Assembly (NCBI RefSeq): GCF_000230675.1
Contig: NZ_AGIK01000001.1
Location: 372,001-436,000, forward strand
From: Synechococcus sp. WH 8016
Lineage (GTDB): Bacteria > Cyanobacteriota > Cyanobacteriia > PCC-6307 > Cyanobiaceae
DNA length: 64,000 nucleotides
Reading direction: 5' to 3'
Positions within the stretch are counted from its first letter, which is position 1, and each line of letters begins with the position of its first letter. A program made the position numbers and the translations under genes. The notes under the pieces are model-generated. The model searched no databases and was not told where the DNA came from. It saw nothing but the letters and a program-made list of their open reading frames with translations. Positions 6,946-58,192 of this stretch are shown here, piece after piece.

Positions 6946-7025
6946 TGCAAAGGCGTAACACCAATCGCTGCAAATTCATGCGAAGCGATCGATAGCTCTA
7001 GACTCATTCAAGCTTGCCAGCTGAC

Positions 7026-7520
7026 ATGAGCGTTGTTCGGGATCTGATTCTCCAAGCAGATGACGATCTGCGTTACCCCAGCAGCGGTGAACTGCGATCA
7101 ATGGTTGATTTCCTCAGCCAGGGTTCGATTCGTTTATCGGTTGTTCGAAGTCTCACTGAGAACGAGAAGAAAATTGTCGACGAATCAGCGAAACAGCTGT
7201 TCAGTCGAAAACCTGAATACGTTGCGCCTGGAGGCAACGCCTTCGGTCAGAAGCAGCGTGCCCAGTGCTTGCGGGACTACAGCTGGTACCTTCGCCTCGT
7301 GACCTACGGCGTTTTGGCAGGCAGCACCGAGCTCATCCAACAGATTGGTCTTGTGGGTGCCCGCGAGATGTACAACAGTCTTGGTGTTCCGATGCCTGGA
7401 ATGGTGGAAGCCATGCGCTGCATGAGAGAGGCTTCCCTGGCACTTCTTTCAGAAGACCAGCAATCACTTGCGGCTCCTTACTTTGATTACCTCATCCAAG
7501 GGATGCAGACCTCGACCTAA
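7026..7520 (+). CDS. apcD: allophycocyanin-B alpha chain (ApcD)
   Basis: Minor phycobilisome core subunit that acts as a terminal energy emitter. The 164-residue protein matches ApcD throughout (MSVVRDLILQADDDLRYPSS, APGGNAFGQ, RLVTYGVLAGSTE), with the phycocyanobilin-binding cysteine at C81 in the QCLRDYSWYLR context. The start is the ATG at 7026; an ATG four codons upstream (7014) is in frame but does not fit the family. ApcD rather than ApcA is favoured by YPSSGEL and by GMVEAM in place of the ApcA residues. It stands alone, not in an apcAB cluster, and is followed by a strong hairpin terminator. Confidence 0.95.
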   Translation: MSVVRDLILQADDDLRYPSSGELRSMVDFLSQGSIRLSVVRSLTENEKKIVDESAKQLFSRKPEYVAPGGNAFGQKQRAQCLRDYSWYLRLVTYGVLAGSTELIQQIGLVGAREMYNSLGVPMPGMVEAMRCMREASLALLSEDQQSLAAPYFDYLIQGMQTST

Positions 7521-55848: not shown

Positions 55849-56667
55849 ATGACCGCTTCATCTTCTCCAGAGTTACCCAATCCGAATTCTGATGTTTGCA
55901 TATCAATTCAGAATGCAACCATTAGCTATGGTGATTTTGAAGCCTTAAAGAATGTATTTTGTGATATCCCGAGAGGGCAAGTAACGGCCTTTATTGGACC
56001 TTCAGGTTGCGGTAAGTCGACATTATTACGTGCCCTTAATCGTATGAATGACTTGATTGAGGGATGCTCTCTTCATGGAAGAATACTTTTTGATGGAGCG
56101 GATTTGTACGCTCCAGATGTTGACCCTGTGGAAGTCCGGCGGCGAATCGGAATGGTTTTTCAGCAACCTAATCCTTTTCCGAAAAGCATTTATGAAAACA
56201 TAGCCTTTGGAGCACGTATTAACGGATATAACGGCAATATGGATGAATTAGTAGAAAAATCATTACGCCAAGCAGCCATATGGGATGAATGCAAGGACAA
56301 GCTCAAAGAGAGTGGAAATTCACTTTCAGGTGGTCAACAGCAGCGTCTTTGTATTGCACGCACCATCGCGATAGAGCCTGAAGTTATTTTGATGGATGAG
56401 CCCTGTTCTGCACTTGATCCCATCTCAACCTTGAAGATTGAGGAAACCATCCATGAGCTCAAGAAGAGTTTCACGATTGTGATTGTGACTCACAACATGC
56501 AGCAAGCTGTTCGTGTGAGTGATATGACAGCGTTCTTTAATGCTGAGGCTCTTGAAGGGGGCTCAGGGAAAGTAGGCTATCTCGTTGAATTCAATGATAC
56601 AGACAAAATTTTTAATGCTCCAGCGCAGCAGGCCACCCAAGATTATGTTTCTGGACGCTTTGGTTGA
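55849..56667 (+). CDS. pstB: phosphate ABC transporter ATPase PstB
   Basis: ATP-binding subunit, 272 residues. Walker [10 protein letters not shown] at 50-58, Q-loop [20 protein letters not shown], signature [16 protein letters not shown], Walker [14 protein letters not shown] and switch His in [13 protein letters not shown]. It couples ATP use to phosphate uptake. No pstS (phosphate-binding protein) follows in this window; in marine picocyanobacteria several pstS genes lie elsewhere. Confidence 0.97.
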
Positions 56668-56691: not shown

Positions 56692-56715
56692 GGCCCTTCG
56701 GAGAAGGGCCTTTGA
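56692..56715 (+). terminator. likely terminator after pstB
   Basis: GGCCCTT and AAGGGCC form a 7-bp stem around CGGAG, followed by TTTGATT, ending the pst transcript before the convergent linker-like gene. The T-tract is interrupted, so it is weaker than the apcD terminator. Confidence 0.6.
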
Positions 56716-56726
56716 TTAACGACTAC

Positions 56727-57539
56727 TTACCAGTAAACTCTTTTGCTGGTTGTTGGCACTTCCCAGAATCTTGTGGTCTTTGATATCGATAAATTCGATC
56801 CTTTGAATAGGGAGATATTGCTTCTTTTTAGCAAAATTGGCTGAGTAAGGGCTCTTGTTCCTAATGCGCTATCACTTGATGCCTCTCGGTTATGCATTTC
56901 TAAGGATGATTTAAAGACAATCGTTCTCATACCAGCTTCTGACTTGAAGGCCCTTTTGTGAGGAACAATCGAATCTCCAAAGACTTCTATATATTCTGCG
57001 GAATCGACAAAGCTGTCCACGAGTGACTCATAGCCGAAGTCATGCAGATGTTTTGTTTTTGTAGCAACTTCTTCTCTGCAGATGGGTGATCTCCCTAGGA
57101 GGTGCTTAAAAAGCAGTTCAATAGATCGCCATGGTGAGACTTGATAAAAATAAACTTGTTTGTAGACTTCTGTTTTGGCTAAGGCCTTCACCATCGTTCT
57201 TACAGTGATGCGACCATCCAATAGCTGCGCATCCAGTTCTGGCATCCTTTGTGATTGTGTAAGTCCTAAATTCCCGAATATTTGCTTATAAGTCGCTGCA
57301 ATAGCTATTTCATGTGCTTCAGGATTAGATGGATGGAATTCCTGAAATGTCACTCCAAATGGACAATTTTCGTGGGATCTAGGACCGATGCTGACCTTCA
57401 TGTTTAGGCAATGTTTTTTTCTATACTCTGCGTTCGTCAATGCCGTCCCATTCTTGGTGCCAGAATTGCTTGCAAAGGAAATTTGAGTTTTCCTATTTGA
57501 TGCTTCGTTTACAAGTAGCCCAGAGGAGTGATTTGGCAT
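56727..57539 (-). CDS. phycobilisome linker-like protein, orphan
   Basis: 270 residues. The middle (about 70-210) matches a rod linker domain (PBS_linker_poly): AIAATYKQIFGN, SQRMPELDAQLLDGRITVRT, VKALAKTEVYKQVYFYQV, ELLFKHLLGRSPICREEVAT and DFGYESLVDSFVDSAEYIEV. The N-terminal arm carries C44 (KKHCLNMKV) and C59 (HENCPFGVT), in the area where gamma-type phycoerythrin linkers attach a bilin to a Cys (for example Cys49 in MpeC), so bilin binding is possible. The C-terminal 60 residues are basic with no match. It stands alone, not beside rod genes, in AT-richer DNA than its neighbours. Which antenna protein it joins is unknown. Confidence 0.85.
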   Translation of the reverse strand: MPNHSSGLLVNEASNRKTQISFASNSGTKNGTALTNAEYRKKHCLNMKVSIGPRSHENCPFGVTFQEFHPSNPEAHEIAIAATYKQIFGNLGLTQSQRMPELDAQLLDGRITVRTMVKALAKTEVYKQVYFYQVSPWRSIELLFKHLLGRSPICREEVATKTKHLHDFGYESLVDSFVDSAEYIEVFGDSIVPHKRAFKSEAGMRTIVFKSSLEMHNREASSDSALGTRALTQPILLKRSNISLFKGSNLSISKTTRFWEVPTTSKRVYW

Positions 57540-57934
57540 GAGTGATTTAGGCGAGAAAAAGAGTACTTACCCAGTGCACGTTGAACTAGAATTCAAAACT
57601 AGAATTTGACTTTTGCAAGTCTGTAGATGTGCGTGGGCAAGTGATCTTACGGTGTTTAATTGTTGTACTTGATTTGCTTAGGAAAAATAAATATCTTGTG
57701 AGTTGATGCCTGTATTTCTATGTTTTTTGCATTTGCGTGTCTTGCGTAAAGTTGTGAGTACTTTTTATACATTTTTCAATAAATATTTTCTCGTTCTTGA
57801 AATGATGGATTGCCGACTGTATGTTGCTGTTATTTTTGCCTGAAAGTAATTCCTAGCCCTTGGATGTGTTGACGACAATGAATGCTTCGATTTTGTTGTT
57901 TTAGTTTTCTCAGTCTTAAGCCGGTTTTGGTGGC

Positions 57935-57996
57935 ACGTCCTTCATGGTCATTCCTTGATAAAACGTCCTTCATGACCATTTCTTGGTGGAACGTCC
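57935..57996. repeat. tandem repeat, 28-bp unit, 2.2 copies
   Basis: ACGTCC occurs at 57935, 57963 and 57991, exactly 28 bases apart. The first two units share ACGTCCTTCATG, then CATT and CTTG, with changes between; TTGGTGG precedes the first and third. The paired TGGTCAT and ATGACCA halves in successive units can pair with each other. No function known. Confidence 0.75.
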
Positions 57997-58020
57997 CCCT
58001 TTGCAGAAGGGAGTTCCCAT

Positions 58021-58044
58021 AAAAAAACCCTTGCGAAGCAAGGG
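58021..58044 (-). terminator. intrinsic terminator of tRNA-Ser
   Basis: On the minus strand CCCTTGC and GCAAGGG form a 7-bp stem around TTC, followed by TTTTTTT. It lies 16 bases beyond the 3' end of the tRNA, so it ends that transcript. Confidence 0.9.
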
Positions 58045-58060
58045 AGTGAGGAGCTTGAAC

Positions 58061-58146
58061 GGAGAGGGAGGGATTCGAACCCTCGATAGAGTTGCCCCTA
58101 TACAGCATTTCCAGTGCTGCGCCTTCGACCACTCGGCCACCTCTCC
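58061..58146 (-). tRNA. tRNA-Ser (anticodon GGA)
   Basis: Read on the minus strand, 86 bases from GGAGAGGTGGCCGAGTGGTC to CCCTCTCC. The acceptor stem GGAGAGG pairs with CCTCTCC, the anticodon loop is CTGGAAA with GGA, a long variable arm (as in serine tRNAs) follows, and the T arm contains GGTTCGAATCC. CCA is not encoded. A hairpin terminator follows. Confidence 0.97.
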
Positions 58147-58192
58147 AGTGGCTGAGATGAGAATGTAGCAGGGCGTTTCCTGAGGGCCTGAT

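Follow-up and report, generated by a model that had tools for sequence, protein, structure and literature searches.

A candidate MpeE-like phycoerythrin II rod linker encoded beside pstB in Synechococcus sp. WH 8016

The closest described relatives of the gene considered here are the phycoerythrin II (PEII) rod linkers of marine Synechococcus, which in strain WH7803 are MpeD and MpeE (Table 2 of PMC2246261, the anchor of our clade names). Judged by the PEII linkers described in PMC2246261 and PMC5318389, the core of such a linker would lie in a PEII hexamer and carry one phycourobilin (PUB). The sections of PMC5318389 at hand report that no lyase of these linkers is characterised, MpeU being a candidate and self-attachment an alternative, and that mpeU is absent from low-PUB strains. 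The pigment types of marine Synechococcus are mostly read from the rod gene region. A study of 2022 reportedly compared these rod regions.

The gene, referred to below as the orphan, lies in the WH8016 genome (G000) within the window, i.e. the whole stretch of 64,000 nucleotides that was analysed, and its features are collected in Table 1. Among the genomes searched it occurs in G000 and in one other, G021. The product contains a single PF00427 domain (E 1.2e-36, 126 bits against a curated cut-off of 28.7), which places it in the rod linker family, as the earlier note had read it from the letters alone. The AlphaFold2 model, whose mean pLDDT is 59.0, is confident over residues 71-190 (block means of 74-93) and falls below 50 at residues 1-33, 48-68 and 193-270; its confident core resembles linker domains of known structure, among them 3pru and 3nph. 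The orphan matched 70 solved chains, and the best 60 of these 70 belong either to phycobilisome linkers or to ApcE, the linker between core and membrane. Ahead of the domain, C44 and C59 form the complete two-cysteine motif of PEII linkers, the N-terminal mark of chromophorylated linkers of this type. Both are invariant in the 13 sequences of alignment A1, orphan included, and belong to its 40 invariant residues, all of which are present in the orphan by definition of the list, the orphan being a row of A1. The position of these cysteines in the region typical of chromophorylated linkers, pointed out in the earlier note, was thereby confirmed; the corresponding segment of MpeD is where its two PUB-binding cysteines are placed in the part of PMC2246261 at hand. 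By its motif, the orphan product is of the bilin-carrying type of linker and probably carries pigment.

Table 1. Position of the orphan linker gene, its segments and its neighbours in the window.
Feature	Position in window	Strand	Basis or remark
Orphan PEII-type rod linker gene	56727..57539	-	270 aa, ATG start; intact ORF
PF00427 linker domain, residues 74-196	56952..57320	-	Domain match and AlphaFold2 core
Bilin-type segment C44 to C59 (CLNMKVSIGPRSHENC)	57363..57410	-	Cysteines invariant, 13/13 alignment rows
pstB, convergent neighbour	55849..56667	+	TIGR00972, 383 bits against cut-off 343
tRNA-Ser(GGA), far border of the junction, neighbour outside the linker gene	58059..58147	-	Follows pstB in 30 of 30 genomes
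Terminator-like hairpin in the gap where pstB and the linker gene converge	56692..56710	+	Consensus match only
AT-rich intergenic region 5' of the linker gene, presumed promoter region	57540..58058	-	Position

The genome carries two phycoerythrin alpha genes whose products both score above the NCBIfam phycoerythrin-alpha cut-off, one with cysteines 59, 82, 96 and 139 (PEI-type) and the other with cysteines 75, 83 and 140 (PEII-type). C75, C83 and C140 are the sites of MpeA in the portion of PMC5318389 used here, and the gene content indicates that WH8016 makes phycoerythrin II; a first guess, that the strain has PEI alone and its PEII linker is a stray, was dropped on the second phycoerythrin operon. 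Ten linker domains were found in this genome, the linker genes being named on the strength of their length, their position and their resemblance to WH7803. Three domains of ApcE and a CpcG-like one are on contig C4, whereas the orphan is on contig C1; contig C6 holds CpcG-like, CpeC-like and CpeE-like genes and the two domains of MpeD (548 aa). The two-cysteine motif is present only in the first domain of MpeD and in the orphan, and these are the only PEII-type linkers of the genome. The claim that the gene lies away from the other phycobilisome genes holds for the nine other linker-domain matches and fails for an allophycocyanin-type subunit gene at window positions 7014-7520 (+), about 49 kb from the orphan, which is the one other phycobilisome gene in the window. 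The best NCBIfam model for that gene is ApcA, with 190.7 bits, under the cut-off of 270; we take its product to be perhaps ApcD.

The rod region of G000 is collinear with that of WH7803, a low-PUB (type 3a) strain, minus mpeE, a few small ORFs being also unpartnered. The gene for the 300-aa MpeE of WH7803 has the PEI alpha gene on one side and the next lyase-like gene on the other; in G000 these two genes are some 156 bp apart, and in both carriers the rod region contains MpeD and lacks mpeC and mpeE. In the parts of PMC3877281 at hand, WH8016 belongs to clade Ib and to pigment type 3aA, with a WH7803-like rod region whose gene organisation equals that of WH7803 in the part drawn in Figure S2 (the mpeE slot may lie outside that part); its excitation ratio (495:545 nm) is 0.37, it shows no chromatic acclimation, and its acclimation island is described as lacking mpeZ and carrying a stop codon within fciA. 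The genome agrees with this description: outside the window, a CA4-A-like island (L291, G000:C1:1245616-1247597) contains an AraC-like gene of 316 aa and a second AraC-like gene broken by a stop; the 409-aa, mpeZ-like lyase of the relative G001 has no counterpart in this island.

Among ten WH7803-like regions the mpeE slot is filled in three (WH7803, G172 and G020) and empty in seven (G000, G021, G023, G142, G030, G157 and G218), so that an empty slot is not peculiar to the carrier lineage. Three of the genomes with an empty slot (G023, G157 and G218) have another PEII-type linker elsewhere, that of G218 having been left out of the tree. G142 (L296, L304), which belongs to another genus and is of the PEII type, has MpeD as its sole PEII-type linker; a second PEII linker is therefore not indispensable. 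Counted as rows at E <= 1e-44, PEII-type linkers number two to four in 24 of the 25 PEII-type genomes of the genus, the exception, G030, being 80% complete. Minus the orphan, the carriers would have MpeD alone, like G142. The tie to pigment type proposed at the outset remains plausible, both carriers having a type 3a-like rod region with an empty mpeE slot. Some observations on other genomes may be recorded here: the mpeE genes at L052 (G012) and L060 (G023), outside the rod region, have some neighbouring genes in common; a further linker of the MpeE clade lies close to the rod region of G012; and in G018 (C1:531628-544884), a relative without PEII-type linker matches, phycobiliprotein genes recur every 2437 bp in at least six copies.

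The phylogenetic analysis drew on 200 linker domains (113 PEII-like and 87 others), the linkers of many of the 73 matching genomes being left out. The first tree, of 80 rows left after removal of near-identical and most non-PEII ones, included an outgroup and used a simpler model; the second, of 62 PEII-type domains, was built after removal of two cysteine-lacking MpeD-like rows and of 16 outgroup rows, one of which is a fragment of the MpeD of the WH8016 genome. In the second tree MpeC, MpeD, MpeE and MpeF/G (a pooled label of this analysis) each formed one clade; apart from MpeD and MpeE of WH7803, the names of these clades are our assumption, in part guided by the tree. The orphan, on an end branch of 1.16, shares a group (93/91) with MpeE and with a linker of the KORDI-100 type, and the same group was obtained in the first tree (95/88). 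The placement in a linker tree suggested by the earlier note puts it at the base of the MpeE group. It falls outside the 17-row MpeE clade itself (100/98), and a group of just these 17 rows and the orphan has a support of 75/46. Approximately unbiased (AU) tests rejected its nesting with MpeE of the WH7803-type (p 0.025), the CC9311-type (p 0.0054) and the RCC307-type (p 0.0048), and rejected none of its groupings with MpeC (p 0.163), MpeD (p 0.181), MpeF/G (p 0.181) or the KORDI-100-type linker (p 0.257). These tests used groups picked after inspection of the tree and are open to long-branch error, so that the placement is to be taken as soft.

These results bear on two other readings of the gene. 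The orphan could be a conditional accessory PEII linker comparable to MpeF and MpeG, outside the standard rod, dependent on light colour or stress, and no stand-in for MpeE. Its location is of the kind known for mpeF and mpeG, whose products were undetected in phycobilisomes under standard conditions according to the part of PMC2246261 at hand, and the grouping with MpeF/G is not rejected by the AU test; the best trees, however, join the orphan to MpeE, the carriers are without any other second PEII linker, and WH8016 does not acclimate to light colour (PMC3877281, in the part at hand), which together make this reading rather unlikely. The orphan could also be an ordinary mpeE that left the rod region and then diverged fast, a reading in keeping with the variable position of mpeE in marine Synechococcus (reported in the part of PMC2246261 used here), with the mpeE genes found outside the slot in several of our genomes and with the empty slot of both carriers; the rejected nestings, subject to the same choice of groups and to long branches, argue against it, and we regard it as improbable.

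The junction between pstB and tRNA-Ser documents the restricted distribution of the gene. A pstB match was found in 30 of the 31 genomes of the genus, all but G013, whose completeness is 70%. The next border after pstB is tRNA-Ser in every one of the 30, with a linker gene in between in two (G000 and G021) and none in 28. The gap measures 49-711 bp in the 28 linker-free genomes, where the only ORF of at least 60 aa is one of 74 aa (G016), and 1391 bp in G000 and 1408 bp in G021. The view of the gene as strain-variable is consequently upheld, and the gene is no universal core linker with one fixed place in every strain. A family search in which at most six candidates per genome were scored matched 73 of 400 genomes at E <= 1e-40, with identities of at most 48% among the rows listed besides the two carriers; when all candidates were scored in the genera of G208 (34 genomes) and G054 (6 genomes), the rows at E <= 1e-56 all had identities of 43-47%, and in neither search was an ortholog seen beyond G000 and G021. 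A single-protein search against named genomes gave no match, the set possibly not containing the orphan's own or very near genomes. A phage or mobile origin was rejected: there were 0 matches in 50,697 phage records (E 1e-5), and viral contigs searched with the orphan protein or its alignment gave none. A 22-base stretch of tRNA-Ser has no second copy in the window at up to three mismatches, and only short repeats were found near the orphan besides a pair of 28-nt tandem copies, 79% alike, lying 5' of the gene at window positions 57935-57990. We recognised no description of the orphan among the papers listed by our literature searches; it may have an earlier name, perhaps mpeH. The orphan is unmentioned in those parts of PMC2246261, PMC3877281 and PMC5318389 that were at hand.

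The two carriers are sister genomes, 97.65% identical over 17 kb around the gene. Between them the orphan shows 9 synonymous and 2 nonsynonymous changes (dN/dS about 0.064) and is under purifying selection; of seven neighbouring genes, five have dN/dS values of 0.019-0.061, one of 0.244, and one has no synonymous change. A decaying, functionless leftover might be read from the long branch and the presence in only two genomes, but with a frame intact in both carriers, purifying selection and both cysteines kept, such a reading is hardly credible.

The orphan stands alone between pstB and tRNA-Ser and converges on pstB, and the adjacency to pst genes and a tRNA given in the earlier note is correct, pstC, pstA and pstB all scoring above their NCBIfam equivalog cut-offs. 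That note had also considered a tie to phosphate stress. The adjacency to pstC-pstA-pstB is what speaks for a phosphate-stress gene; the convergent orientation, the intervening hairpin (6 terminator-like hairpins found against a mean of 2.6 by chance, a mild excess) and the pstB-tRNA-Ser junctions devoid of linker speak against it. The best Pho-box match upstream of the orphan covers 10 of 16 positions, a score reached by 140 of 200 shuffles. Phosphate control of the orphan is thus unlikely, and a role as a phosphate-stress gene very improbable. No clear second copy of the upstream region (57540..58058) was found elsewhere in the genome. As to base composition, the orphan, with a GC of 0.415, ranks lowest among the 47 ORFs of 150 aa or more in the window, which as a whole has 0.543, and differs from the genome's own rod-region linkers (mpeD, 0.561). 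The AT-rich island noted earlier is real for the gene but extends over the pst genes (0.435-0.477). The gain hinted at from this AT-richness did not hold, and recent foreign gain was dropped as a candidate: low GC says little about it, pstB in the seven nearest relatives (0.389-0.432) and the CC9311-type mpeE in six of these seven (0.398-0.420; L015 is not among the 12 lowest rows listed) being about as AT-rich.

The reading we propose, with a probability of about 0.68, is that the orphan encodes a divergent MpeE-like, PUB-carrying PEII rod linker, which would serve as the second PEII linker in place of MpeE. The PF00427 domain would be lodged within a PEII hexamer, which the tail would link with the following disc, and one PUB would be bound jointly by C44 and C59; in a low-PUB (type 3a) lineage without MpeC and MpeE, the orphan would thereby supply the second PEII linker and allow a further PEII disc. 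The incorporation into the rod, the bilin, the rod position and the replacement of MpeE are what we infer here. The length of 270 aa against 276-300 aa for the MpeE rows, the alignable tail and the two to four PEII linkers of nearly all PEII-type genomes of the genus argue for this MpeE-like reading, and the soft tree with its long end branch, the existence of MpeD alone in G142 and the empty slot in five other regions argue against it. More tentatively, the orphan may represent a separately evolved type of PEII linker, beyond MpeC to MpeG, kept by a single lineage; once this lineage had acquired a type-3a rod region devoid of mpeE, the fast-diverged orphan would have taken the place of MpeE, and it would now determine how many PEII discs there are and how much PUB remains in a low-PUB strain. 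The only candidate for the second PEII linker is on another contig, beside pstB, so that a reading confined to the rod region would overlook it; if the MpeE-like reading is true, an unlinked strain-specific gene can complete the composition of the rod. The orphan also offers a clean deletion target for the effect of a second PEII linker.

Among the known systems close to the orphan is the PEII rod linker MpeE, with which it shares a single PF00427 domain, the N-terminal two-cysteine motif, a similar length and tail, and an often-found location outside the rod region; it differs in its identity of about 41-45% to the MpeE rows listed, its position outside their clade and its locus between pstB and tRNA-Ser, unseen for other linkers in the 30 genomes compared. 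MpeC, the distal PEII linker, has the same domain and motif and an identity of 44-47%, in part the highest of the searches, but forms a separate clade and has a longer tail in the alignment. The first domain of MpeD, present in the orphan's own genome at 41% identity, has the motif as well, within a two-domain protein encoded in the rod region. MpeF and MpeG are PEII-type linkers encoded, like the orphan, outside the rod region; unlike it, they fall in a separate clade and are reported, in the part of PMC2246261 at hand, from chromatic acclimaters and RCC307.
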